Source of the DNA: Alphaproteobacteria bacterium
GTDB lineage: Bacteria > Pseudomonadota > Alphaproteobacteria > Micropepsales > Micropepsaceae
DNA: 64,000 nt
NCBI GenBank assembly: GCA_028871795.1
Contig: JAGWMG010000001.1
Location: forward strand, 186,001 to 250,000
Direction of reading: 5' to 3'
This document shows positions 23,342-36,725 of this stretch, in pieces. The stretch's first letter is position 1. Every line of letters starts with the position of its first letter. Made by a program: the position numbers and the translations under genes. The notes under the pieces were generated by a model that was not told where the DNA came from, did no database searches, and saw nothing but the letters and a program-made list of their open reading frames with translations.

Positions 23342-26188
23342 GTGACCGATCCCGCTCGGCTAGATCATCCCGACAATTTCAAATACTGGGCCTTTATCAG
23401 CTACAGCCATGCTGACGAAGTCTGGGCCAAGTGGCTTCATCGCACGCTGGAGACCTATCGCGTTCCTCTGGCGCTGGTCGGACGGCCTTCGCGCAACGGC
23501 GCCGTGCCTCGCCGCATTTTTCCCCTGTTCCGCGACCGCGAGGAATTGCCCACATCCGCCAGTCTGTCGGACAACATCGGCGACGCCTTGGCAAGATCGC
23601 GCTATCTCATCGTGATCTGTTCGGCCCGTGCGGCGGTGTCGCGCTGGGTCAACGAAGAAGTGAAGGCTTTTAAGGCGCTCGGACGTTCCGACCGCATCCT
23701 TTGTCTGATCGTGGACGGGGAACCAAACGCGTCCGACGATCCGCACAGCGGCCTGCTCGAATGCTTCCCTGCGGCCGTGCGCCACGACGTTTCGCCGACG
23801 GGCGAGATTCTGGATAGCCGCACCGAGCCCATCGCCGCCGACGTGCGCGCCGGCAAGGACGGCAAATCCAACGCCCGCCTGAAGCTGCTGGCCGGAATCC
23901 TCGGCGTCAATTTCGATGCTCTGCGTCAGCGCGAAAGGCGGCGCCGGATTTGGCGGCGCATTATGATCGGGGTCGGCGCAGGCGCCGTTGCGGCGCTCAT
24001 CGGCGCCGTCTGGTATCGCGGCCATCTCGAAGCGCGCCAGATTCAGAGAGCGCAAGATTTGCGTCTGGCGCAGCTGATGATTCAAAAAACAAAAGAGGCG
24101 CTTGCCCACGGCGACGATGCGAGCGCCATGTTCTATGGCGCCAACGCCATCGAATACAGCCTGCTGGCCGGCGTCCGGCCGCTGGAAAGCGATCTGCTGC
24201 AATCGCTGACGTTGAGCGCGTTCACCCGGGGGCGGGTCAACGATGCGAAATTCAGCGGCGGACTTGCAGTCTCGCCGGGTGGCAAACGCATGGTCTGGGG
24301 CCGCAAGGACGGGACACTGGTCTTGTGGGATATTGCCGCAAAACGGCCGCTCCGCATTTTTGCGGGTCACAAGGGGCCCGTCTCCGCGGCCGTCTTCACG
24401 CCGGACGGCGCCTGGCTGGCGACGGCGGGCAGCGACGGGACCGTCCGGCTTTGGAGTGTCGCCGGCAAAAGCGTCTATCTGTTAGCCGCGAAGGGCCCCG
24501 CGGTACGATCGCTTGCCGTCAGCGGCGACGGCGCGCTGCTTGCCGCCGCGGGGGCCGACTGGAAGATCCATTTATGGAGCATCGCGCGCCGACAGGAATT
24601 GCGCGCGTTGACGGGCCACAGCGATCAAATCAATTCCATAGCCTTCTCGCCCGACGGCATCCATCTCGCATCGGCCGCGCAGGATCGCCAAATCGCGCTA
24701 TGGAAGCTTGCGAGCGGACGCATGGAAAAGCGGTTCCGCTATCGCATCGTGCCCCGGGCGGTCGCGTTCGGTTCGACGGGCGAGCTGGCGGCAAGCCTGT
24801 TCGACGGAACGATCAGACTATGGGATACCGCCCGTTGGCGCGAAACGGGTGTCCTGCAAGGCCATTTCCGAATGGTCGATACGCTGGCTTTCAGTCCTGA
24901 CGGCCAGATTCTCGCTTCCGGAAGCGACGATTGGACGGTCGCCCTGTGGGACGTCAGCGCGCGGCAAAAGATTACGACACTTTCGGAGCATTCGCGGCCG
25001 ATCAAAGCCGTCGCCTTCGCCGACAACGGTGCGACGCTTGTGGCCGGCAGCGAGGATGAAACCATCAGTCTGTGGCACATCGTTCCGCAGCTGTATGTTT
25101 CCTCGTTCGAGGCCCATGAAGGCGCCGTGCGATCGTTGGCATTTGCTCCCGGCGGGCAAGCCTTGGTATCCGCCGGCGAGGACGGCATGATCCGCGTGTG
25201 GGACGTGGGCACGCACCGGCAGCTCTATGAATTTCCGCATCTGCATGACGACGCCGTTTACGCCGTCGCCTTCACCCCCGGCGGCAGGTATCTGTTGTCC
25301 GCGGGCCGCGATCACCGCATCGTGGTATGGGACTGGGCCACGAAACGCAAAGTCAAGACCGTGATAGGGCACAGCGCCTGGATCTTCGGGCTGGCAGTTT
25401 CACCGGACGGAAAGGCGGTCGCGACGGCCGGCTGGGACGACAAAGTCAAGGTTTGGTCCGTGCCGCAGCTTCGCCCTCTGGCGCCGCCGCTTGCGGAACA
25501 TACAGCGCCCGTCGGCGGCGTGGCCTTTTCGCCCGATGGACGCCTGCTTGCCTCGGCCGGCAACGACACGAAGATCTGGCTGTGGGACGCCCGCACGTTC
25601 AAACCGATCGCACCGCTGACGGGACACACCGAAGTGGTGCGCCCGGTGGTTTTCGATCCCGACAGCGGGCTGCTCGCATCCGGGAGCGGCGATCATCACA
25701 TCAAGCTTTGGGACGTCTCGCCGCCGCGGCGGGATCTGGCCCTCAGAAAGAATCCCCTTGCAACGCTTGAGGGACATCATTCCTACATGGTTTGGGCCCT
25801 CGCCTTCAGTCCCGACGGCCGCCTGCTGGCGTCGGGCTCGCAAAGCGACGACCGGCAGACGGTTCGGCTGTGGGACGTCCGCCGGAGGCGCCTGGTCGCG
25901 AGGCTCCCCGGACATCGCGATTATGCCCTTGCGCTCGCCTTCAGCCCCGACGGAAAACGGCTCGCCTCGGGTGGGTCCGACGGCACCATCCGCTTCTGGC
26001 GGACGAGCGACTTCTGGCCAGCGCCGAAGACGAGAAGCGTGAGCGGCGCGCTTTTGCAGGAGTTCCTCGATTCTCCGCCTTACCGGACCGACCTTGCAGA
26101 AGCGCTTTTGCGAAAAATTGGTGCAATAACGGGTTTGGAACTGGTGGGAACGGACGCACAACCGATCGAACATGCTGCGGGGGAGTAG
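23342..26188 (+). CDS. Membrane-anchored TIR domain protein with 14 WD40 repeats
   Basis: The 948-residue protein has an N-terminal TIR domain (about residues 13-150) with FISYSHAD at 18-25 and a WVNEE motif at 102-106. The Trp-x-x-Glu there is the place of the catalytic glutamate in NAD-cleaving TIR domains. A single transmembrane helix (about 207-224, flanked by Arg-rich RRRRIWRR) and a short helical linker follow. Fourteen WD40 repeats then run from about 300 to 900, each ending in LWD/VWS-type strands, enough for two seven-bladed propellers. Topology would place TIR in the cytoplasm. The start is GTG 23342; the Shine-Dalgarno is weak. First of a three-gene plus-strand set. Confidence 0.9.
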   Translation: MTDPARLDHPDNFKYWAFISYSHADEVWAKWLHRTLETYRVPLALVGRPSRNGAVPRRIFPLFRDREELPTSASLSDNIGDALARSRYLIVICSARAAVSRWVNEEVKAFKALGRSDRILCLIVDGEPNASDDPHSGLLECFPAAVRHDVSPTGEILDSRTEPIAADVRAGKDGKSNARLKLLAGILGVNFDALRQRERRRRIWRRIMIGVGAGAVAALIGAVWYRGHLEARQIQRAQDLRLAQLMIQKTKEALAHGDDASAMFYGANAIEYSLLAGVRPLESDLLQSLTLSAFTRGRVNDAKFSGGLAVSPGGKRMVWGRKDGTLVLWDIAAKRPLRIFAGHKGPVSAAVFTPDGAWLATAGSDGTVRLWSVAGKSVYLLAAKGPAVRSLAVSGDGALLAAAGADWKIHLWSIARRQELRALTGHSDQINSIAFSPDGIHLASAAQDRQIALWKLASGRMEKRFRYRIVPRAVAFGSTGELAASLFDGTIRLWDTARWRETGVLQGHFRMVDTLAFSPDGQILASGSDDWTVALWDVSARQKITTLSEHSRPIKAVAFADNGATLVAGSEDETISLWHIVPQLYVSSFEAHEGAVRSLAFAPGGQALVSAGEDGMIRVWDVGTHRQLYEFPHLHDDAVYAVAFTPGGRYLLSAGRDHRIVVWDWATKRKVKTVIGHSAWIFGLAVSPDGKAVATAGWDDKVKVWSVPQLRPLAPPLAEHTAPVGGVAFSPDGRLLASAGNDTKIWLWDARTFKPIAPLTGHTEVVRPVVFDPDSGLLASGSGDHHIKLWDVSPPRRDLALRKNPLATLEGHHSYMVWALAFSPDGRLLASGSQSDDRQTVRLWDVRRRRLVARLPGHRDYALALAFSPDGKRLASGGSDGTIRFWRTSDFWPAPKTRSVSGALLQEFLDSPPYRTDLAEALLRKIGAITGLELVGTDAQPIEHAAGE

Positions 26189-26193
26189 TCATC

Positions 26194-26511
26194 TTGAGCG
26201 ACGGAACATGGCGCGCGCTCGCTTTCACCGCATTGGCGGCGACCCTCATCGTCCAATTTCAAACGGCGCTGCCCGACCGGGAAGGCGCGATTGAAAACGA
26301 TCCCGCGCTTTCGGGCGCCATCGACACCCAGAATGTTGACCTTGAGGTCCAACTGCATCTGAAAAGCCTGGGTTTCGATCCCGGGCCGATTGACGGGATT
26401 GCCGGTTCGCGCACGCGCAATGCGATCCTGGCCTACCGCAAATGGCTGGGAGTGCCCGGCGGCAATCGCGTGACGCGCGATCTTCTGTTGACGTTTGGCG
26501 AAGGAGGTTGA
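26194..26511 (+). CDS. Small membrane-linked peptidoglycan-binding domain protein
   Basis: The 105-residue protein begins at a TTG (26194) preceded by GGGGGAG at 8 bases. An N-terminal hydrophobic helix (about residues 8-24) is followed by one PG_binding_1-type three-helix domain (about 50-90) with the typical LKSLGFDPGPIDG and FxxxTRNAI-like pattern (AGSRTRNAILAYRKW). It starts 5 bases after the TIR-WD40 stop, so they are co-expressed. It would place a murein-binding module in the periplasm near the TIR anchor. Confidence 0.75.
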   Translation: MSDGTWRALAFTALAATLIVQFQTALPDREGAIENDPALSGAIDTQNVDLEVQLHLKSLGFDPGPIDGIAGSRTRNAILAYRKWLGVPGGNRVTRDLLLTFGEGG

Positions 26512-26513
26512 TC

Positions 26514-28169
26514 TTGTCCGACGGGACGGACGCGCCGCATACGGCATACCGGGCCGCGCTGATCGCGGCGGCGCCCTATATCGCGTTCATGCTGGTCGTG
26601 CCGCTTGCGGCGCATTGGATGTTTTCCAGGCTGGGGTTTAACCCGACCGATGACGGCTTCGTGCTCGCTTATGCGCGGCGCATGCTGGACGGCCAGATTC
26701 CGCACCGCGATTTCATCGCCATTCATCTGGCCGGATCGGGACTGGTGCACATGCCGTTCGTGGCGTTTGGCGGCAATCGAACCTATCTAATCTCGCGCCT
26801 TTTCGTTTGGATCGAGTTGGCCTGGACGGCACTCGCCTGGACTTTGATCGGCCGCACCATGCTGTCCTTGCGCCGCAACGCGGCCGCGGAAATCTGCATT
26901 GCGCTCATCGCGTTCGCGTTTTCCGCGCATTACTTCCCGGTCATGGCGTGGCACACGATCGACGGGCTGTTCTTCGCCGCCTGCGGAATCCTTTTGTGCC
27001 TGCAACCGCGGATCGCGGCCCGGCTGGCCGGGTATTTCCTTATCGGCGTCGCTGTCCTGTGCAAGCAGAGCTATATCTTCATGGCGCCCGCCGCCGTGCT
27101 GCTGCTGGGTCATGGCCGCGAGCGGCGCGCCTGGATAGCCGTCGCGGTTCCCGGCTTCGTCTATGCCGCAGTTGTCACGGCGGGCGGAGGGTTTCGCGAT
27201 GCGGTGCTGCAACTGACGGCGCAGACAGGTCTCGGCGAAACGGGATTTCTCAAATACTACTGGGAGTATGCTACCGGCTGGGGAATGCTGTTCGGCTATC
27301 TGGCAATGCGGCTGCTGAACGGTGCGGGCGACATCGGCAATAACGAAAAATATGCCGCAGTGGGCGGCATCGCGGCGGTTCTTCTGGCGTCGAGTTTTGC
27401 GTTGGCACAAGGGCAGGTCCTGAACGCGACCGCATTCGGACTGTTCGGAATGACGGCCGGCGCGATGCTGTATTTTCCGTTCGAAAAAAGTCGGCGGGAT
27501 GCAGGCGGGCGCTTCGGCGCCTTGAGTGCGCTGGCGATGTGGTGCGCATCGCTGTCCATCGGTTACAACACGCCCGCTCTGGCATGCGGTTTTGCAGCCG
27601 TCTATCTGCTTCTCATGGTGAGCAAGGCACCCGTGGTTTGGCCGCGTCCGCTCATCCGGTTGGCAATTCCCGGACTCGCGCTTGTTTCCGGAATCACTCT
27701 CTTCGAGTTCTATGTCGCGCGCGAGCAATACGTCTATCTCGAACAGCCGGCTTCAAAACTTACGTATTCCCTGGACGGCGTTTTTCCTGGCGCGGACGGC
27801 ATTCTGACCGACAAGAATACGTACGCCTTTCTTGTCGATCTCGATGACGCCGTCCATGAAGCGGGCGGCCGCTACGCGATCCTGCCGGATCTGGCGGGTT
27901 ACTGGGCGGCGGCGCCGCAAGCCAATCCGCTGCCGACGGATTGGGCGCAATGGTTCGAGCTTGCCACCCCCGAACTCCTGGCGCGCGTCACGCAAACCGT
28001 CGTCGCCGACCGCGGCCGCCTCACGGTTATCGTGCAGAAAGTTCGCGCCGCTTCCCTGGCGCGCGGATTTCTTCCGCTTGGCGATAGCGAATATTACGCC
28101 GCTGCCGCCTTCGTCAGACACCATCTGACGAAAGTGGGAGAGACGAAGTTCTTCGAACTTTATCGCTGA
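26514..28169 (+). CDS. Polytopic GT-C-like membrane protein
   Basis: The 551-residue protein starts at a TTG (26514) with GGAGG 6 bases upstream, two bases after the previous stop. It has about ten hydrophobic segments over residues 10-410 and a soluble C-terminal domain (about 415-551). The first loop contains NPTDDGFVLAYARRMLDGQ followed by HRDF, which resembles the acidic first-loop motif of GT-C glycosyltransferases (ArnT/PMT type). This is a fold-level guess; the substrate is unknown. Third gene of the TIR set; it converges on the lipoprotein gene, 45 bases away. Confidence 0.65.
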   Translation: MSDGTDAPHTAYRAALIAAAPYIAFMLVVPLAAHWMFSRLGFNPTDDGFVLAYARRMLDGQIPHRDFIAIHLAGSGLVHMPFVAFGGNRTYLISRLFVWIELAWTALAWTLIGRTMLSLRRNAAAEICIALIAFAFSAHYFPVMAWHTIDGLFFAACGILLCLQPRIAARLAGYFLIGVAVLCKQSYIFMAPAAVLLLGHGRERRAWIAVAVPGFVYAAVVTAGGGFRDAVLQLTAQTGLGETGFLKYYWEYATGWGMLFGYLAMRLLNGAGDIGNNEKYAAVGGIAAVLLASSFALAQGQVLNATAFGLFGMTAGAMLYFPFEKSRRDAGGRFGALSALAMWCASLSIGYNTPALACGFAAVYLLLMVSKAPVVWPRPLIRLAIPGLALVSGITLFEFYVAREQYVYLEQPASKLTYSLDGVFPGADGILTDKNTYAFLVDLDDAVHEAGGRYAILPDLAGYWAAAPQANPLPTDWAQWFELATPELLARVTQTVVADRGRLTVIVQKVRAASLARGFLPLGDSEYYAAAAFVRHHLTKVGETKFFELYR

Positions 28170-28214: not shown

Positions 28215-29870
28215 TTATTGCGGGTTGGCCAGGATGACAGGCTGGGCAGGCGGGCCCGTGTACTCTTTCTGAAGTCCCCACACTTGGTTCAACAGCGAGA
28301 GCACGGCGATGCTCTCGTTGTCGGGGTACTCGACCGAGCATCCTCCGCCGTCGGCCTTAAGCGGCGCGAGGCGGATCGAGAGGGGGCATAGCTTCGGCAA
28401 TCTCATCTCTTTGCCGCTGTCCGCTTTGATGGACAGCGCCGCATCTGCCAAATCCAGCGCGCTCGAGGCGTAGAACATGGATTCGGTGTAACCCACTCCC
28501 GTGACCGTGGAATTCCGGCCGTGAACCCTGACAATGGACGCCGGATCGACGCCGCTCTCGTCCGCTCGGACGATTTCGCCGAGGTAATAGATCATTCCCT
28601 CGAAGGAACGTTCGGTAAAAGCGATGTCCTTGGACACGAGGCGGATCGGCTTCGTGTCGTCCGACTGCGCCCCCGGCGCCCGATCCGCTTTTGCAGCGTG
28701 TGCCTTCCTGGCTTCGGGTCGCGGTTTGTCGTTCCTGGCGCAGGCGCCGGAATTGTCGTCGTCCGCGCCCGACTGCCGCGTCGCCTCCAGATCGTCAGTC
28801 AACTTGGAAGCCAGGCCAGCCAGCGCGGTATTCTGCTTGCGATCAAACGCCAGCGTGAAGGCGACCTTGTCCGGCTTCGACCGGCAAAGGACCGCCGATT
28901 TGCCGTCCGGCAGATTCACGATTTTCGTACCCTGCTTGACCATTTCGAGGCGGAAATTGGGGTCGTTGGCGACTTTCGCGGGAACGTGCGCGTCAACGAC
29001 TTCGGACGAAAGATTTCCGCCGGGTGCGATGTCCAGGCCCAGGACGAACAAATCCTGCAGCAGCATTTCGAAACACATTTGGTGGTGAGGAATTTTCGTG
29101 CGGTCGGCGCTGCTTCCGGGCGGCAATATCTCCTGAGCGGGATCGTTGGCAAATTCGACGCTGGTGCCTGCCGTGTTCGTATATGCGCCTCCGTTCGCCG
29201 CGCACTTGACCAACGACCAATGCTCGCGCCAGTCGCCGCCGGCAAAATTAGCTCCGTAGGGGTCACTGCGAATGTACTCGCAGGTGGAGTCCGTGGACGT
29301 ATCGCTGCAGGTGCTGGCGACCGCCGCGTCGATCTTGTTCACGAGGTCGGTATCGAGCCGTACCCGCGCAATGAACATGAGCATGAGGAGATCGCGGGAG
29401 TAGCCTTCGTCGAAATACCCCTTCAACTGGGTGAAATCGAGCGCTTTCATCATCCCCGCTTGATATTTCTGATCGTCCATCGTCTGTAGAGACAGCGTGT
29501 TCGTCTCCGGTGTGGACAGTCCGATGGTGCCGCTGAGCGCGCCGAGGCTGCTGATCGACTTGGTTCCCGTGAGAACGCCGGTTGCCCCCTTGTCGCCTTC
29601 GAAGGTGAAGCCCTTCGTGAAGGGAATGGCCGCGCCGAGTGTCGGCGACATGCCGGCCGAGGCGGTATCGCCTTGAAGCCGCGAATAATAGGTCGGCATG
29701 CGCTCGCTTGCGCGCACGATGTTGCGGAACAACAATTGATTGTTTGAATTCGCGACGGCATCGTTGAAGGCCATGGATCTGTCGGCCATGCCCGGTGAAT
29801 ACTGGCACGCCGACAATCCAAATGCGGCAGCGAGAATGGAAAGCGTGCGAATCGTCACTCGCAATGTCAT
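28215..29870 (-). CDS. Lipoprotein of an uncharacterised family
   Basis: The 551-residue protein has a lipoprotein signal with lipobox LSAC (Cys22). Immediately after it comes FNDAVANSNNQLLFRNIVRASERMPTYYSRL-type sequence, residues about 34-64. I recall this pattern from uncharacterised proteobacterial lipoproteins of unknown role. Paired Cys residues occur around 185-195 and 240-295, and a charged low-complexity linker (about 395-435, Asp/Lys/Ala-rich) separates it from a C-terminal domain. ATG 29870 is used. It lies 121 bases downstream of the RCK-RyR gene on the same strand and may be co-transcribed with it. Confidence 0.65.
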   Translation of the reverse strand: MTLRVTIRTLSILAAAFGLSACQYSPGMADRSMAFNDAVANSNNQLLFRNIVRASERMPTYYSRLQGDTASAGMSPTLGAAIPFTKGFTFEGDKGATGVLTGTKSISSLGALSGTIGLSTPETNTLSLQTMDDQKYQAGMMKALDFTQLKGYFDEGYSRDLLMLMFIARVRLDTDLVNKIDAAVASTCSDTSTDSTCEYIRSDPYGANFAGGDWREHWSLVKCAANGGAYTNTAGTSVEFANDPAQEILPPGSSADRTKIPHHQMCFEMLLQDLFVLGLDIAPGGNLSSEVVDAHVPAKVANDPNFRLEMVKQGTKIVNLPDGKSAVLCRSKPDKVAFTLAFDRKQNTALAGLASKLTDDLEATRQSGADDDNSGACARNDKPRPEARKAHAAKADRAPGAQSDDTKPIRLVSKDIAFTERSFEGMIYYLGEIVRADESGVDPASIVRVHGRNSTVTGVGYTESMFYASSALDLADAALSIKADSGKEMRLPKLCPLSIRLAPLKADGGGCSVEYPDNESIAVLSLLNQVWGLQKEYTGPPAQPVILANPQ

Positions 29871-29991
29871 GGCCACCCCCAGGCCGATACGCGATTCAAG
29901 TATCTCCCAGTGGTGAATTTCCGCAAGTGGGCGCCCGTTTTTTGGGGCACGAAACGGGCGCGTTTCTCGCGTGTGCGTTACAAGAGAATCT

Positions 29992-31713
29992 TCAGGCCGC
30001 GCCGGTAAGCGTACGCTGGAGTTCGAATCCCATGCCGGCCAGCAACTCAGGCAAGGCTTTTGCTTGCTTGCGGCAGGCTTCTTTCGCGTCGAAAGGCAGG
30101 GCAGTCCAGTCCACCAGCAGCGGATTGGCGCGATCGACTTCATTCCGGCTTGGCCTGTAACGCCATCCCGCCAGACTTCTTTCGATATACCAGCGATGAT
30201 GCTCGAGCCGGGCGAGCGTCTCGATTTCGTCGGAGGTCAGCGTGAATTGCCCAGGCGGATACGCCTTGGCCATCCTCAACCCGGCATGGGCGAGCTTGAC
30301 AGGCAGTTGGTCCGCATGGCGACGGCTGGATTGCCTGTATGCCTCGGGCAACTCGTCCCAGGCAGCGTGCGTTTGGCGCCCGGCGGTCGCAGAGGAATGC
30401 TCCCGGTAATAATCGTGGATCGCGCGCGCAAACTTGTCGAGCTCCGCCTCCATGATATTGTTCGGATCGAACAGCTCCTCCAGCGAGCCAAAGGTATGAA
30501 GATGGCTCGCCGCGCCGCGGCGATGCTTCAGGCCCACGACAAATCTTCCAAGCTGGTTGTGACGCTGAAGCCGCATATAGACCGGCACTTCGGCGTGTCC
30601 GAGGCGCTCGAGCCGTCGCGACAGTCCCAGAGCGGCGTAGAGACTCTGATTGTCGTCGGGCAGGCAAACCACGCCGGCAAGCATTTTCTCCGCCCCAAGC
30701 CGCTTTTCGACTGCGGTCCAGGCTTCCGGCGTCTCGGTGCCGAGGTCGGCCGCAACGAACTCGATGTCCGCGAACTGTGGGATCACCGGGAATTGCGCCA
30801 GGATCGCCTGCTGGCGCTGCTCCGCCTCTCGGTCGAATATGATGATGCGCGCCTTTTCGCCCGGCTGCGTCATATCGAGCCGAATGGCGTCCATCAGCAA
30901 TTGCCGCCCCATGGATCCGCAGCCGACCAGAACGAGCGCGCGTCTTTCGCCACCCATGCGGAGCGGGTTGGCGATTTCGCGCATTAGCAGGCGCGATGCG
31001 GTTTCATAAGTGTTGAAAACGCGAAGATCGGCGACCGGCCAGCCCAGAGGCGCAACCTCGTCGACCAGATGGGAATAGAGCCAGTCGTTGCGCAGCTCAA
31101 CGAGGATGTTCAGGCGCGATTCGCGGCGCAGTTTCCGTCCGGACAGCAGCGTTTCCAGACGGAACGCGATGTCCAGGTTCTCCGCATCGTCGCCGGTGCA
31201 GATGACGACCGTAGAAGCGCCGGCAACGCCCGCGAAGCTGAGAACCGGCAGACCTTTGGCATCACCCGTCACGACTGCGATTCCTTCGCGCCGGCTCGAC
31301 ACGGCATGGGGACCGTCAGCCGCGCGCTCGATGGCCACGACTCTGTGGCCGCGTTTGATGGCATTCTGGACGACGTGCATGCCGCAGTCGCCAAGGCCGC
31401 AAACGACGGTGTGGTTCTTCCAGCCTTTTGCCCGTATTCCGCGGATGTCGTAGCGGAGATCGCGAAGCGCGAGCTGCACGGCGCGAAGCACGGCCGCAAC
31501 CGGAACGACCAGCACCCAGGACTTCATGGCGGTCTGGAAGAAAGCCGCCCAGGAAAACGACTCTTTTCCCTGTTGTTCTATCGCGCTCCAGACCAGCGGG
31601 ACGACACAGAGGATGAGAAAGATCGCCACATAGAACAGGGTCTGCGAACTTCGGAACAACTCGCCCGCCGCAACGTTCTTCGCGGCGTGTTCTTGGTGTT
31701 CATCCGATGCCAT
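29992..31713 (-). CDS. Two-TM double TrkA-N (RCK-like) protein with C-terminal RyR domain
   Basis: The 573-residue protein has two transmembrane helices (about residues 25-43 and 62-80). A Rossmann nucleotide-binding domain follows, with GLGDCG at 106-111 as in TrkA-N/RCK domains, then a second Rossmann unit with VGCGSMG in the middle. The last 80 residues (about 495-565) match the RyR domain pattern: LARLEHHRWYIERSLAGWRY, then NPLLVDWTALPFDAKEACR. RCK domains gate ion flux in response to nucleotides. No K-channel selectivity filter (TxGYG) is visible, so it is not a normal potassium channel. AGGGG precedes ATG 31713. Confidence 0.82.
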   Translation of the reverse strand: MASDEHQEHAAKNVAAGELFRSSQTLFYVAIFLILCVVPLVWSAIEQQGKESFSWAAFFQTAMKSWVLVVPVAAVLRAVQLALRDLRYDIRGIRAKGWKNHTVVCGLGDCGMHVVQNAIKRGHRVVAIERAADGPHAVSSRREGIAVVTGDAKGLPVLSFAGVAGASTVVICTGDDAENLDIAFRLETLLSGRKLRRESRLNILVELRNDWLYSHLVDEVAPLGWPVADLRVFNTYETASRLLMREIANPLRMGGERRALVLVGCGSMGRQLLMDAIRLDMTQPGEKARIIIFDREAEQRQQAILAQFPVIPQFADIEFVAADLGTETPEAWTAVEKRLGAEKMLAGVVCLPDDNQSLYAALGLSRRLERLGHAEVPVYMRLQRHNQLGRFVVGLKHRRGAASHLHTFGSLEELFDPNNIMEAELDKFARAIHDYYREHSSATAGRQTHAAWDELPEAYRQSSRRHADQLPVKLAHAGLRMAKAYPPGQFTLTSDEIETLARLEHHRWYIERSLAGWRYRPSRNEVDRANPLLVDWTALPFDAKEACRKQAKALPELLAGMGFELQRTLTGAA

Positions 31714-31972: not shown

Positions 31973-33706
31973 CTAACTCGGCATCGCGAGGTTGCGGCTT
32001 TCGACGACCAGCCGCCAGCTCGCCACGTCGCCTAGCATGATCTCGGCCGCCTGATGGGCGATGTCCCGCAGGGAGTCGTAGCTGTGCGGACCTTCTTCGA
32101 GGATACTCTGGAGGCCTTCGAGCTGCGCTTGCATGCGGGCCGAACGCCGCGCCGCGCCGTCGAATTCTCCGATCACGCGAATGCCGTAGCTTGCGGCCGC
32201 AAGCGCTGGCAGGCTGGCGGACGCGACGACAACCCAGCGCTTCAACTCCGGCCCCATCAAATCGGGGTGGAATAATTCGACCAGGAAATGCGCCGAAACC
32301 ACGACGAGTGCGGAGATGAAGAGGTATTTCCCGACGGCTTCGAGGCGGTCATGCACTCGCTGGAACCGCCGCGCCGTCGCCTGGTGATAGGCGCGCTGTC
32401 CGGTGACGAAAGCCAGCAGCGGTTTTCGCGCCGTCGACAAGCCGGCGTCGTCCAATGTTGCGCTCCGAACTCCGGCTTCGCGCAATTTCGCCCGGACGTA
32501 CCAGGACGTCCAGGTCGGCGGGTCGCCGAACGGACCGAAGGAACGCGTGCCGACCGCGAGCATCGGCACAGCCACGCGCAGGCGTTCCGCGACCTCGCGA
32601 GCTTCGATCCAGCGATGATGCCAATGGCTACGCTGTCCGACCGCCGTGTTGACGACCAGGGTGAGGACAAACGCGACATCAAATACGCTCCAAGGCGGTT
32701 TGGGCGATATGACGGCTGAGATGATCGCGAACGCCGAGATCACAAAATTCGAGACGAAGGCGCTGCGGAAAGCCTGTGCGAAGTACACAGCAACGGCATC
32801 GGCCCACCCGAAGGATTCGGCGAGCACTCGCGAACCGGATGCGTCGGGGTGCAGCCCGTCGGCCAGTTGGCGAGGCCGCGGCAGCGAGAAGTCGCTCCAG
32901 CGCGGCACACGTACGGCCAAGAGCGCCATGAGAAGGGGGAATTCGAGGCGCAACGAAGTTCGCCTGATCTTCTCGTCGAGATAGCGACGAAAATCCCTTT
33001 GTTCGGCTGCGGAGCGCGGCGGGCGCAGCAACGAATCCACCACCGCCGAAAGCTTGTCGGACAGCTCCGCGAAGGGATGATCGTCCATATGCACCGATGC
33101 CGCCCGGCGATCGTCCAAGCCACGCCAGTAGATGCGTGCCGGAATCTTTCCCTCGGCATCGATGCGGACGATGGGCATCCCGCGGCGTGCCGCTTCATAG
33201 ATAAGCTCGACCGTTCCGCCGCGGCCGGCTCCAGGCTTGCCGTCCCATACGGCGACCAATATGTCGGAAGCGTCAAGCAGGGCGAGGCCCGCGGCCTCAT
33301 ACGCCTTTCCTTCGTCGGCGCGGCTTCCGTTCAGTTCAAGAACCGCGCGCGCTTTCTGCCGAAAATTGGTGAAGGATTTAAGCGCCGGCGCCGGAAAGTC
33401 CTTTTCGTACTCCTTGATCAAGAAGGGCAGAACGGCATCCAGCTGGTATTCCGACGAAGTCGCGGCCTCGGCCGCCATGATGTCCGTTCCGTCGGCGAGG
33501 GCCGTCGTCAGCGTTAGAATCGGCTGGTCTGGCGCGAAGAACTCTGCGTACCGCGCATGCACACCGATTGCCTCGCGCTTGATTGCTTCGAGCGTGTCGA
33601 CGACGGACTGCTCCACGCCGGCGCGCGCCTCTTCCGGCAGCCGGTTGGGCCTATGGCCGGTGACCCCGACGACGAGTGCAAAACGAGGTTTTGGCGGGTT
33701 ATCCAC
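31973..33706 (-). CDS. SLOG-like nucleotide-binding domain fused to four membrane helices (SLATT-like)
   Basis: The 577-residue protein has an N-terminal Rossmann-like domain (about residues 8-195) with GVTGHRP at 14-20 and VAVWDGKPGAGRGGTVE near 151-167. This is the pattern of the SLOG/LOG/DprA superfamily, which senses or processes nucleotides. Two helix pairs follow (about 326-344/350-366 and 471-489/501-518). Each is accompanied by a charged helix with repeated Arg (HRWIEAREVAERLR; RRSARMQAQLE), similar to SLATT/DUF4231 membrane effector regions. GTG 33706 is chosen as start because it overlaps the stop of the small upstream gene by 8 bases. Confidence 0.72.
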   Translation of the reverse strand: MDNPPKPRFALVVGVTGHRPNRLPEEARAGVEQSVVDTLEAIKREAIGVHARYAEFFAPDQPILTLTTALADGTDIMAAEAATSSEYQLDAVLPFLIKEYEKDFPAPALKSFTNFRQKARAVLELNGSRADEGKAYEAAGLALLDASDILVAVWDGKPGAGRGGTVELIYEAARRGMPIVRIDAEGKIPARIYWRGLDDRRAASVHMDDHPFAELSDKLSAVVDSLLRPPRSAAEQRDFRRYLDEKIRRTSLRLEFPLLMALLAVRVPRWSDFSLPRPRQLADGLHPDASGSRVLAESFGWADAVAVYFAQAFRSAFVSNFVISAFAIISAVISPKPPWSVFDVAFVLTLVVNTAVGQRSHWHHRWIEAREVAERLRVAVPMLAVGTRSFGPFGDPPTWTSWYVRAKLREAGVRSATLDDAGLSTARKPLLAFVTGQRAYHQATARRFQRVHDRLEAVGKYLFISALVVVSAHFLVELFHPDLMGPELKRWVVVASASLPALAAASYGIRVIGEFDGAARRSARMQAQLEGLQSILEEGPHSYDSLRDIAHQAAEIMLGDVASWRLVVESRNLAMPS

Positions 33707-33938
33707 GGCAAGGTTCCCGACCCCGCACGAATAATTTCTTTTCCTCGGTGTCGACGGGGCAATCTGTGGCGTGGCAAAACCTGCCGGCCAGTATGTTGCC
33801 GAACTCACCGCAAATTTGGCATTTCATCTCGTAACCTTGACCGCCGTCGTCCGCGGGAACCATAGCGTACAGCAATTCGTATCGTCCTTCGGCAACGGCC
33901 TTGCGAACTATTTCGGATGTTGCGCGGTCGAAGGGCAT
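33699..33938 (-). CDS. Small Cys-rich, zinc-ribbon-like protein upstream of the SLOG gene
   Basis: The 79-residue protein has a strong Shine-Dalgarno (GGAGG) three bases before ATG 33938. It carries CQIC followed by FCHATDC, a Cys/His pattern that could bind zinc. The N-terminal half (ATSEIVRKAVAEGRYELLYAM) looks helical. Its stop lies inside the beginning of the SLOG-like gene (8-base overlap), the usual sign of translational coupling, which supports both genes being real. No family is recognised. It is the first gene of the minus-strand set. Confidence 0.6.
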   Translation of the reverse strand: MPFDRATSEIVRKAVAEGRYELLYAMVPADDGGQGYEMKCQICGEFGNILAGRFCHATDCPVDTEEKKLFVRGREPCRG

Positions 33939-34294: not shown

Positions 34295-34552
34295 GTGTGT
34301 TTGGCAATTCCAGGCCGGGTGGCGAGCGTCTCGGGCGATGATCCAATCATGCGCGTCGGCCGCATCAATTTCGGCGGTATCGTCAAGGAAATCAATCTCG
34401 CCTATGTGCCCGAGGCGCGCGTCGGCGACTATGTGCTTGTGCATGTCGGTTTCGCTCTGGCGGTGATCGACCAGGCGGAAGCCGGCCGGGTGTTCGAATA
34501 CCTGAAGGAAATCGCCGAGATCGATGCCGTGCAGTCGGACACCGCGCCGTGA
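34295..34552 (+). CDS. hypC: [NiFe]-hydrogenase maturation chaperone HypC
   Basis: The 85-residue protein starts MCLAIPG, with the essential Cys2 of HypC/HybG, and shows the family's GDYVLVHVGFALAVID core. HypC binds HypD and carries the Fe(CN)2CO unit to the hydrogenase large subunit in the cytoplasm. The start is GTG 34295 with GGAG 8 bases upstream. Its stop overlaps the hypD start (GTGA-type overlap), so hypC-hypD-hypE are translationally coupled. Confidence 0.95.
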   Translation: MCLAIPGRVASVSGDDPIMRVGRINFGGIVKEINLAYVPEARVGDYVLVHVGFALAVIDQAEAGRVFEYLKEIAEIDAVQSDTAP

Positions 34553-35682
34553 AGCACACCGACGAGTACCGTGACGGACGGCTGGCGCGCGCGGTCGCTG
34601 TGCGCATCACCCGGGAGGCGGACCCCGCCGCCGAATACCACTTCATGGAATTCTGCGGCGGCCATACCCACGCCATTTCGCGGTATGGAATCGCCGATCT
34701 TCTGCCGGGCAACGTGCGGATGATCCATGGTCCGGGCTGTCCCGTCTGCGTGCTGCCGGTCGGGCGCATCGACGCGGCGATTCATCTTGCCGAGCGCCCC
34801 GAAGTCACGCTGTGCACCTATGGCGATCTTATGCGGGTGCCCGGTTCGCACGGGACGTCGCTGCTCAAGGCGAAGGCGGCGGGAGCCGACATCCGCATGG
34901 TCTATTCGACGCTCGATGCGCTGCGCATCGCCGAGGCGGAAGCGGATCGCCAGGTCGTGTTCTTCGCCATCGGCTTCGAGACCACGGCACCGCCCACCGC
35001 ACTCGCCGTCAAGCTGGCGGCCGCGAAGAAGCTTGCGAACTTCACGATCTACTGCAACCATGTTCTGACTCCGCCGGCCATCCGGAACATCCTTGAAAGC
35101 CCCGACGTGCGCGAGCTTGGACGGGTGCGAATCGATGGCTTCATCGGCCCGGCCCATGTCAGCACCGTGATCGGCAGCCAGCCTTACGCCTTCTTCGCCG
35201 AAGAGTTCGAGAAGCCCGTGGTGATCGCTGGCTTCGAGCCGCTCGACGTCATGCAGGCGATCCTGATGCTGGTCCGCCAAGTGAACGACGGGCGATGCCA
35301 AGTCGAGAACCAGTACGCGCGTGCGGTCAAGCCCCAAGGCAACGAGAAAGCCAAGGCCGAGGTCGCGGAAATTTTCGAGCTCCGCAAGAGCTTCGAATGG
35401 CGCGGTTTGGGCCACGTCCCCTACAGCGGATTGCGCCTCAAGGAGGCCTATGCCGCCTTTGACGCCGAACGGCGGTTTCCCATCGCGGCAATTGAGGCGC
35501 ACGACAATCCCGCCTGCGAATGCGGCGCCATCCTGCGTGGGATCAAGAAGCCCACCGGTTGCAAGCTGTTCGGAACCGCATGTACGCCCGAGACGCCGAT
35601 GGGCTCCTGCATGGTCTCGGCCGAAGGCGCCTGTGCTGCGCACTGGTCGTACGGCCGCTTCCGCGATCGCGAGGCGTTATGA
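34549..35682 (+). CDS. hypD: Hydrogenase maturation protein HypD
   Basis: The 377-residue iron-sulfur protein, with HypC, is the scaffold on which the Fe(CN)2CO group is built. The conserved Cys motifs are present: FCGGHTH, GPGCPVC, and near the C-terminus the cluster ligands in PTGCKLFGTACTPETPMGSCMVS followed by GACAAHW. Length and motif order match HypD throughout. The start is a GTG at 34549 inside the hypC stop region; the stop overlaps hypE by 4 bases (ATGA). Confidence 0.95.
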   Translation: MKHTDEYRDGRLARAVAVRITREADPAAEYHFMEFCGGHTHAISRYGIADLLPGNVRMIHGPGCPVCVLPVGRIDAAIHLAERPEVTLCTYGDLMRVPGSHGTSLLKAKAAGADIRMVYSTLDALRIAEAEADRQVVFFAIGFETTAPPTALAVKLAAAKKLANFTIYCNHVLTPPAIRNILESPDVRELGRVRIDGFIGPAHVSTVIGSQPYAFFAEEFEKPVVIAGFEPLDVMQAILMLVRQVNDGRCQVENQYARAVKPQGNEKAKAEVAEIFELRKSFEWRGLGHVPYSGLRLKEAYAAFDAERRFPIAAIEAHDNPACECGAILRGIKKPTGCKLFGTACTPETPMGSCMVSAEGACAAHWSYGRFRDREAL

Positions 35683-36725
35683 CCATCAAGGCTTACAAGC
35701 GCCGGCTCGACATCAAGGACGGCTGCGTCGACCTTTCGCACGGCTCCGGCGGACGGGCTATGTCCCAGCTTATTTCCGGCCTGTTCTACGAGGCCCTCGA
35801 CAACAAATGGCTCAGGCGCGGCAACGACCAATCCGCTTTCGAGGTGTCGGGCGGGCGCCTGGTGATGACGACCGACGGCTATGTCGTCTCGCCGCTTTTC
35901 TTTCCGGGCGGCAACATAGGATCGCTGGCCGTCCACGGCACCATCAACGATGTCGCCATGGCCGGCGCGCGGCCGCTGTTCCTCTCGGCGGGATTCATCC
36001 TCGAGGAAGGCTTCGCGCTCGCCGATCTGAAGCGCATCGCCGACAGCATGGGGGACGCTTCGCGCGCTGCCGGCGTTCCTGTCATCACCGGTGACACCAA
36101 GGTGGTCGAACGCGGCAAGGCCGACGGCGTGTTCATTACCACGACGGGTGTCGGCGTGGTTCCGGACGGCCTCGATCTTTCGGCCGAGAAGGCGCGGCCG
36201 GAAGACAGCGTGATCCTGTCGGGCACCATCGGCGATCACGGCGTTGCCGTGATGTCGAAGCGGCAGAACCTTGCCTTCGAGACGCATATCTTGTCCGACT
36301 CGGCGCCGTTGCACGGTCTCGTCGCGGTGATGGTAGAAAGTGGCGGTCAGGCATTGCGCGTCATGCGCGACCCGACGCGCGGCGGCCTGGCTGCGACCCT
36401 CAACGAGCTGGCACAACAATCGAATGTTGGCTTCCGTATCGCCGAGGAGGCCGTTCCCGTGAAGCCCGAAGTGGCGGCGGCGTGCGATCTGCTCGGGCTC
36501 GATCCGCTTTATGTGGCGAACGAAGGCAAGCTGGTCGCCATCGTCGCGCCCGAAGCCGCGAAGAAGGTGCTTGCGGCGATGCGCGCCCATCCGCTGGGAC
36601 GCGACGCGGCGATCATCGGCAAGGTGATCGCCGACGACCACAATTTCGTACAGATGGCGACGAGCTTCGGCGGCGGCCGAATCGTGGACTGGCTGTCGGG
36701 TGAGCAATTGCCGCGGATCTGCTGA
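35679..36725 (+). CDS. hypE: Hydrogenase maturation protein HypE
   Basis: The 348-residue PurM-like ATPase dehydrates a carbamoylated C-terminal cysteine to thiocyanate, supplying the cyanide ligands of [NiFe] hydrogenase. It has the LSHGSGGRAM N-terminal motif, the NDVAMAGARP nucleotide-binding region, the RDPTRGGLA motif and ends exactly in PRIC, the modified C-terminus. Its partner HypF (carbamoyl transfer) is not in this window. Confidence 0.95.
   Translation: MTIKAYKRRLDIKDGCVDLSHGSGGRAMSQLISGLFYEALDNKWLRRGNDQSAFEVSGGRLVMTTDGYVVSPLFFPGGNIGSLAVHGTINDVAMAGARPLFLSAGFILEEGFALADLKRIADSMGDASRAAGVPVITGDTKVVERGKADGVFITTTGVGVVPDGLDLSAEKARPEDSVILSGTIGDHGVAVMSKRQNLAFETHILSDSAPLHGLVAVMVESGGQALRVMRDPTRGGLAATLNELAQQSNVGFRIAEEAVPVKPEVAAACDLLGLDPLYVANEGKLVAIVAPEAAKKVLAAMRAHPLGRDAAIIGKVIADDHNFVQMATSFGGGRIVDWLSGEQLPRIC

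Follow-up and report, generated by a model that had tools for sequence, protein, structure and literature searches.

A bacterial two-transmembrane, tandem-RCK protein with a RyR tail in a SLOG and TIR gene neighbourhood: a candidate ligand-sensing membrane protein

Introduction

What would a RyR domain, a module of eukaryotic calcium-release channels, do at the end of a bacterial membrane protein? The question is raised by a gene in a 64,000-nucleotide stretch of an alphaproteobacterial genome (Micropepsaceae; assembly GCA_028871795.1, contig JAGWMG010000001.1, positions 186,001 to 250,000), which we refer to as the window. The encoded protein, here called RyR-RCK, combines two transmembrane (TM) helices, two Rossmann units of the RCK/TrkA kind and a C-terminal RyR module, and its gene lies near genes for a SLOG-SLATT membrane protein and a TIR protein. 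We favour, with a probability of roughly 0.5, the reading that RyR-RCK serves a TIR/SLOG nucleotide-signalling module as its membrane effector or sensor, gated by an ADP-ribose-type ligand and with a putative role in conflict with phages.

Results

Domain architecture and predicted fold

A sequence-only reading of this gene had described a C-terminal RyR domain behind two TrkA-N-like units and two membrane helices, with no potassium-channel filter, and all of these features were recovered. Pfam hidden Markov models (HMMs) match TrkA_N at residues 103-190 (E 8.5e-14, 52.3 bits against a cut-off of 23.8) and RyR (PF02026) at residues 497-566 (E 2.5e-8, 34.5 bits against 27.4). In a phmmer search of PDB sequences, the entries nearest to the RyR part are RyR constructs (6uhi, E 9.8e-10; RyR2, E 7.7e-7), and those nearest to the Rossmann part are TrkA proteins (TM1088A, E 2.1e-4). 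PF02026 is matched at E 0.001 or better by 35 of the 36 rows of our family alignment; a scan of the window's whole 2.98 Mb genome returns a single match, RyR-RCK itself, and 14 control genomes return none.

The second Rossmann unit received no Pfam call; it is visible in the AF2 model and in matches to tandem-RCK proteins, and aligns to the first at 96.5% probability (hhalign, E 8.2e-10). The two hydropathy peaks (Table 1) have their counterparts in AF2 helices 6-47 and 55-96. Only 12 residues lie between these peaks in the window copy, compared with 36-59 in 28 of the 33 rows that have two peaks. A TVGYG-type filter is absent from the sequence, and Pfam gave no Ion_trans_2 or other ion-channel family up to E 10.

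The AF2 model, built from the 36-row alignment, has a mean predicted local distance difference test score (pLDDT) of 87.7 and a predicted TM-score of 0.83. Foldseek against the PDB returned TrkA gating rings, the 2TM/tandem-RCK K+ channel GsuK, the CASTOR gating ring and MthK, with full-length GsuK chains aligned over 506-539 columns. A separate group of matches is human RyR3 Repeat12, which bears out the predicted RyR-repeat fold: chain 9ls7_D was found at E 3.2e-5 and probability 1.00 over 178 columns, and other chains aligned over up to 192 columns. The root-mean-square deviation (rmsd) of 7.8 and target TM-score of 0.49 to Repeat12 suggest that the repeats are packed somewhat differently. 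With VIA-align 2 the RCK pair is closest to DMI1 (Z 21.5; 7vm8, residues 99-471) and CASTOR (Z 21.0; 6o7c, residues 99-475). GsuK chain 4gx5_C follows at Z 19.2 over residues 21-433, with an rmsd of 8.7 that points to a different placement of the TM and RCK parts. No RyR entry appears among the best 50 VIA-align 2 matches, which are filled by the RCK part.

As modelled, then, the window protein is a 2TM-RCK-RCK body of the GsuK/MthK type, lacking their TVGYG-type filter and carrying a tail like RyR Repeat12 (R12). Because sequence and fold methods concur, we rejected chance similarity. We also rejected a plain K+ channel, since the filter is absent, and a plain soluble TrkA/KtrA subunit, since two TM helices and a RyR module are present.

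A tandem RyR module and its ligand positions

Ahead of the Pfam RyR match, the family alignment has a block that reads HxxYL...PWxELPExxRxxNRxxADHxxxKL and resembles a RyR repeat. When both blocks were cut from the 36-row alignment, this stretch and the C-terminal repeat aligned to each other with an hhalign probability of 97.0 (E 1.2e-10, 60 of 61 columns), and in four control pairings, either RyR block set against the Rossmann blocks, the probability was at most 0.5%. In addition, a Micromonospora member (L061) has two RyR stretches by Pfam, compared with one in the window protein. On the strength of this self-match and of L061, the RyR module is, as judged from sequence, a tandem pair like animal R12, with a degenerate first repeat that the sequence-only reading had not described.

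The phage protein RyDEP contacts its ligand through H75, W78, H100 and D117 (PMC13232231; for this and the other papers cited by PMC number, statements refer to the parts of the text available to us). We placed these residues by spacing, at positions 0, 3, 25 and 42 from the first histidine; the D117 assignment is tentative. Position 42 is an aspartate in a Bacteroides/human chimera. Across the 36 rows, histidine occupies position 0 in 36 and position 25 in 32, tryptophan occupies position 3 in 35, and position 42 is aspartate in 17 and asparagine in 14. The window copy keeps H505 and W508, and has N530 and C547 at the places of H100 and, tentatively, D117.

In human RyR3 R12 the ligand contacts include Trp880, stacked on the adenine, and two phosphate-binding residues, Lys884 and Arg895 (PMC12627627). 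By position (3, 7 and 18) they correspond to W508, R512 and R523 of the window copy, and an arginine or lysine stands at position 18 in 35 of the 36 rows. We predict that the window module binds an adenine nucleotide without hydrolysing it. Phage RyR domains bind 2'/3' cyclic ADP-ribose (2'/3'cADPR), with a complex formed by six of eight homologues (PMC13232231). We rejected naming this molecule as the ligand of the window protein, for which it is only a candidate. Searching phage sequences with L061 (tblastn) gave 22 records, and the 20 listed match the RyR part only, over at most 17% of the query; the window RyR module found 3 records.

Relatives with a potassium filter

An Oscillospiraceae member of 506 aa (L075) carries TVGYGD and matches both Ion_trans_2 (E 6.3e-12) and RyR (E 6.6e-7). 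A TIR gene flanks its gene on one side, and the gene of a filter-less RyR protein on the other. Homologues of this channel occur in 12 of 250 genomes of its family, its own genome included. Thirteen loci were read (L075, L133-L144): TVGYGD lies in an intact frame in ten, on a separate frame of an apparently split gene in L143, and is missing from L142 and L144. The ten intact filter-bearing members all match Ion_trans_2, and eight match RyR at E 0.001.

Seven of the eleven TVGYGD loci have a TIR gene in the stretch, and L138-L141 have none. In L075, L133, L134, L135 and L143 the TIR gene adjoins the channel gene and their ends overlap; it is one gene off in L136 and 2.5 kb off in L137. A filter-less RyR protein gene adjoins the filter-bearing one in L075 and L133-L138. 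As a gene arrangement, L075 (7089-13192), L133-L138 and L143 are clusters of a filter-less RyR membrane protein and a TVGYGD channel-RyR protein, mostly with TIR. Going by sequence, the family includes members of the K+-channel type, and the window copy represents a branch of it without the filter. Having neither the filter nor two of the ligand residues, this copy may be a divergent member, one that does not conduct K+ or one that depends on a partner.

Neighbours of RyR-RCK in the window

The sequence-only reading had also placed SLOG and TIR genes next to RyR-RCK, and both are present (Table 1). The 611-aa upstream neighbour matches SLATT_1 at E 5.9e-9 (36 bits, below the cut-off of 41), and its split homologue in L018 exceeds the cut-offs for SLATT_3 and DUF4231. 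The AF2 model of the 611-aa protein (12 rows) has a pLDDT of 79.5. In VIA-align 2 the SLOG domain is closest to YpsA (Z 17.5, rmsd 2.5, 159 aligned), followed by DprA (13.7) and LOG proteins (near 10.8), with weaker matches to TRPM2 (near 8.6) and to the BcThsA SLOG domain with 3'cADPR (8.3). The SLOG call rests on this fold because the sequence matches are weak: YpsA is reached at E 0.016 here, and at best at 0.012, by a single member, among 13 SLOG domains scanned with Pfam.

The TIR domain of the 948-aa protein exceeds the cut-offs of both TIR_2 (E 4.2e-14) and ThsB_TIR (E 2.9e-9, 37.7 bits against 21.2); the protein also contains the motif SRWVNEE and, by Pfam, WD40 repeats. RyR, SLOG-SLATT and TIR_2 each have one match in the genome, and all three fall within 10.3 kb; by a rough estimate, three independent singletons would lie this close with a chance of about 4e-5.

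Table 1. Coordinates of RyR-RCK, its parts and the neighbouring genes, in positions of the window
Feature	Position	Strand	Basis
RyR-RCK protein gene (2TM, two RCK/TrkA Rossmanns, tandem RyR repeats)	29992..31713	-	ATG start, 573 aa, frame intact
Two TM helices, residues 27-45 and 58-76, short loop between, without K+ filter	31486..31635	-	hydropathy, AF2
RCK/TrkA_N domain 1, residues ~99-250, GLGDCG motif at 106	30964..31419	-	Pfam, motif, CASTOR/TrkA/GsuK matches
RCK-like domain 2, residues ~255-420, GCGSMG motif at 264	30454..30951	-	AF2, hhalign to domain 1, fold matches
Degenerate RyR repeat 1, residues 424-480	30274..30444	-	hhalign to repeat 2; Foldseek to RyR3 Repeat12
RyR repeat 2, residues 495-568; H505, W508, R512, R523 kept; N530, C547 changed	30010..30231	-	Pfam, column counts
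SLOG-SLATT membrane protein gene, 611 aa, directly upstream of RyR gene	31973..33808	-	SLATT_1 below cut-off, AF2, YpsA fold
SLOG domain, residues ~43-223 of 611-aa protein	33140..33682	-	VIA-align 2
Lipoprotein-like gene, downstream of RyR gene, start uncertain	28215..29876	-	homologues near SLOG-SLATT elsewhere
TIR-TM-WD40 protein gene, 948 aa, opposite strand to RyR gene	23342..26188	+	TIR_2, ThsB_TIR, WD40 matches

The lipoprotein-like gene has no Pfam match up to E 10; in L019 and L033 its homologues (phmmer E 2e-5) adjoin SLOG-SLATT. A 575-aa protein without a Pfam match (26442-28169, plus strand), encoded in the interval that separates the TIR gene from the RyR cluster, looks membrane-like by eye. 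The tail of a short open reading frame directly after the TIR-WD40 gene (26200-26511, plus strand) resembles, also by eye, a peptidoglycan-binding repeat. On the other side, HypC-HypD-HypE hydrogenase maturation genes adjoin the cluster (34295-36725, plus strand). The promoter/terminator scan was uninformative: it gave 1 and 5 sites, where shuffled sequences gave 1.6 and 6.1.

Conservation of the neighbourhood

An earlier contig scan with the window protein alone gave 15 pattern matches, none of them a relative. Scanning contigs with five family members yielded 49 loci from Micromonospora, Verrucosispora, Frankia and other Actinomycetota, Planctomycetota, Alphaproteobacteria, Magnetococcales, several Firmicutes, Campylobacterota and Dehalococcoidia. 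Adding eight further loci and the window and removing two duplicates made a set of 56, which was scored with custom HMMs. Left out before this count were L046, L070, L007, L031 and L035 (duplicates of L008, L009, L036, L059 and L037) and the RyR proteins that are not 2TM-RCK (L021-L023, L030, L034); counted separately were the plasmid loci L112-L114, the SLOG-SLATT loci L106-L111 and loci L133-L144. The set retains kin (L019 and L033, of the same genus; L079 and L081, both Hyphomonadaceae) and other RyR architectures, such as L076 and L077.

SLOG is present in 38 of the 56 loci, at most 1.7 kb from the RyR frame in loci with a called frame (the gene finder missed it in L066 and L084) and in the same frame in L077. 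TIR is present in 10, the nearest at up to 3.9 kb, and 46 loci have one or the other. Other partners are DUF4062 (8 loci), caspase-like (5) and patatin (3). The 27 Micromonospora-group loci, all with SLOG, share descent, and we therefore counted the other 29 apart: 11 have SLOG, 10 have TIR and 19 have either. For a stretch of 18 kb, the expected frequency of TIR is about 0.3%, a background taken from one class with another model (47 TIR_2 matches in 96 class genomes, assuming 2.9 Mb per genome) that may differ elsewhere.

Four genomes of the class sample encode a 2TM-RCK RyR protein (G000, G164, G210 and G288). SLOG-SLATT adjoins RyR in three of these four (split in G288), and G210 has a TIR gene; across the class, SLOG-SLATT is present in 20 of 385 genomes, weak partial matches included. 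SLOG-SLATT with TIR neighbours also occurs without RyR, in L107 and L111, which belong to the same genus.

Some loci have arrangements of their own. In a Dehalococcoidia metagenome-assembled genome (L077, 1102-3312), RyR and SLOG share one frame after a weak, below-cut-off HD-domain match. The RyR-RCK gene of L009 (433-6791) lies amid MlaD, MlaE and MlaF-like lipid-transport genes, named by eye, and SLOG-SLATT. A patatin-like phospholipase gene clusters with RyR-RCK and SLOG in L019, L033 and L037, as well as in the plasmid loci L113 and L114. A second, stand-alone RyR gene (118-123 aa) lies about 5 kb from the RyR-RCK gene in L071, L079 and L081, and in L071 a Glyco_hydro_108 protein is encoded between the two.

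All three plasmid loci examined contain a partner gene. On an Arcobacter plasmid the protein is split, with separate NAD-binding and RyR genes, and next comes a gene for DUF4062, reported to be a TIR-like NADase in phage defence (PMC13174449); the stretch also contains type I restriction, integrase and transposase genes. On each of two conjugative Sinorhizobium plasmids (L113 and L114), the stretch encodes a 780-aa member together with SLOG and patatin proteins. On both, the RyR-RCK member lies near a type IV secretion coupling gene, and in L113 adenylate cyclase genes come after it.

Discussion

Domain, fold, architecture, absence of a filter and neighbours were all borne out, the neighbourhood recurs across phyla and filter-bearing relatives exist. 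These observations support a ligand-sensing, filter-less membrane protein in a SLOG/TIR setting, as the sequence-only reading had suggested. The domains, the predicted folds, the conservation of the neighbourhood and the relatives with a K+ filter are observed.

We propose the following mechanism. The neighbouring genes probably make or sense alarm signals derived from nicotinamide adenine dinucleotide (NAD). The TIR protein, or elsewhere TIR-like DUF4062, would act as an NADase and turn NAD+ into an ADP-ribose-type signal. The SLATT protein, through its SLOG domain, and RyR-RCK, through its RyR module, would each bind an adenine-ribose ligand, and the RCK pair might bind nucleotides of the NAD(H)/ADP/ATP type. 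Binding would rearrange the RCK ring, and with it the state of the two TM helices and the permeability of the membrane. The ligand, the gating, the role in defence and an activity of the filter-less window copy are what we infer from the observed arrangement.

Several results weigh against this proposal. The window copy has the short TM1-TM2 loop and lacks the histidine and aspartate assigned to RyDEP H100 and, tentatively, D117. It has both GxGxxG-like motifs, which occur in only 11 of 34 rows in RCK1 and 18 of 36 in RCK2, so that nucleotide binding by the RCK pair is no family rule. The window TIR gene does not share an operon with the RyR gene: it is 3.8 kb from it, on the other strand and with at least two genes between. 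TIR is absent from the stretches examined in all 27 Micromonospora-group loci, was not found in the three plasmid stretches, and TIR_2 is absent from genome G164, which carries RyR-patatin-SLOG-SLATT; TIR is thus not always needed. None of the partners sought was found in 10 of the 56 loci, among which L032, L045, L080 and L084 are cut by a contig end. Conversely, L106 and L108-L110 have SLOG-SLATT without RyR, TIR or another partner sought in the stretches examined. Finally, PADLOC models did not match the window RyR protein, and none of the 36 family members matches PADLOC-DB 2023.

A more specific version of the proposal, which we hold only tentatively, is that TIR-made cADPR isomers bind R12-like tandem RyR modules and directly gate 2TM-RCK channels as an immune output. 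The targets would be K+ channels with a canonical filter in the family of L075 and filter-less effectors elsewhere, including the window, and phage RyDEP and the bacterial channels would have a common receptor fold. If this is true, the control of animal RyR by adenine nucleotides or cADPR would reuse an older bacterial immune receptor module.

Three other explanations were weighed. RyR-RCK could be a housekeeping regulator of ion or NAD status that senses NAD(H) or ADP and has no role in conflict, its neighbours reflecting a shared NAD chemistry. Its nearest folds are indeed regulators of K+ channels and transporters, and GsuK has ADP and NAD+ as activators and Ca2+ as an inhibitor (PMC3510474). 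A housekeeping function fits poorly, however, with the patchy distribution of the family (5 of 96 genomes of the order, and a RyR match in 7 of 385 genomes of the class), with partners such as TIR, SLOG-SLATT, patatin, caspase-like and DUF4062 genes, and with plasmid-borne copies, one of which adjoins restriction genes. We consider this explanation unlikely.

Alternatively, the RyR module could be an off-switch that, in the manner of RyDEP, sequesters or degrades the TIR signal and keeps the SLOG-SLATT effector silent until infection. RyDEP cleaves 2'/3'cADPR and its homologues sequester it (PMC13232231), RyR is often found with the putative effector SLOG-SLATT, and the aspartate at position 42 in 17 of the 36 members means that some could be catalytic, if the tentative mapping holds. 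The window copy, however, has C547 and N530 at the D117 and H100 places. A sink would also have no use for a 2TM-RCK-RCK body, K+ channel members exist, and RyR occurs with TIR but without a SLOG match in 8 of the 10 TIR loci, all of which makes an off-switch quite improbable. Least probable in our view is that the window gene is decaying, or encodes a divergent regulatory subunit that does not conduct, and that the working channel lies elsewhere or was lost: the short loop, the absent filter, the two changed RyR residues and the adjacent filter-less and filter-bearing genes of L075 and L133-L138 would fit, but the 573-aa frame is intact, both GxGxxG motifs are kept, the AF2 model is confident and no second RyR gene was found in the genome.

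If the membrane effector or sensor reading is right, a channel-type output is added to TIR immune signalling, and the RyR domain has an older role as a membrane-gating adenine-ribose receptor. How the R12 module of RyR controls a channel, and which ligand it uses to do so, is a long-standing question that would become testable in a small bacterial protein, and the clusters of K+ channel-RyR and TIR genes are compact enough to be reconstituted.

Apart from the phage RyDEP preprint, the literature records listed gave no account of a bacterial RyR-RCK protein; most subscription journals lie outside this coverage, and an earlier mention is possible. Such a protein is not mentioned in the available parts of PMC7016017 and PMC8195603. 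SLATT is named in the available part of PMC9503650, and the two biology papers listed on SLATT and SLOG do not mention RyR.

Among known systems, GsuK (PDB 4gx0/4gx2/4gx5), a dual-RCK multi-ligand-gated K+ channel, has the same order of 2TM followed by tandem RCK; unlike GsuK, the window copy has no TVGYG-type filter, a short TM1-TM2 loop and C-terminal tandem RyR repeats. The plant ion-channel proteins CASTOR and DMI1 provide the best VIA-align 2 matches of the RCK pair, in entries that hold gating rings only. Animal RyR3 Repeat12 (9ls7/9l9b/6uhb) shares the tandem RyR repeats and the adenine- and phosphate-contacting W, R/K and R; the bacterial full repeat, however, is the second one, and the body is RCK channel-like rather than a calcium-release channel.

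TIR/SLOG/SLATT conflict systems were reportedly described by Burroughs et al. in 2015. The SLOG-SLATT genes beside TIR without RyR in L107 and L111 resemble these systems, whereas the window has a RyR-RCK partner. RyDEP, an anti-Thoeris homodimer of phages (PMC13232231), belongs to the same PF02026 family and has H75 and W78 in common with the window copy, as H505 and W508, but the window copy differs from it at the H100 and (tentatively) D117 equivalents, and its RyR module is fused to a 2TM-RCK body. In Thoeris (ThsB TIR plus ThsA) the resemblance lies in the window TIR, which is over the ThsB_TIR cut-off, and in the SLOG domain, which is distantly BcThsA-like. A scan of neighbouring genes in the window showed no SIR2-SLOG or Macro-TM ThsA (the search for ThsA did not extend to the whole genome), and on that ground we rejected Thoeris as defined for this cluster. 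The putative effectors of the window are instead SLATT and RyR-RCK, and by analogy the signalling that we favour would follow a logic akin to that of Thoeris.

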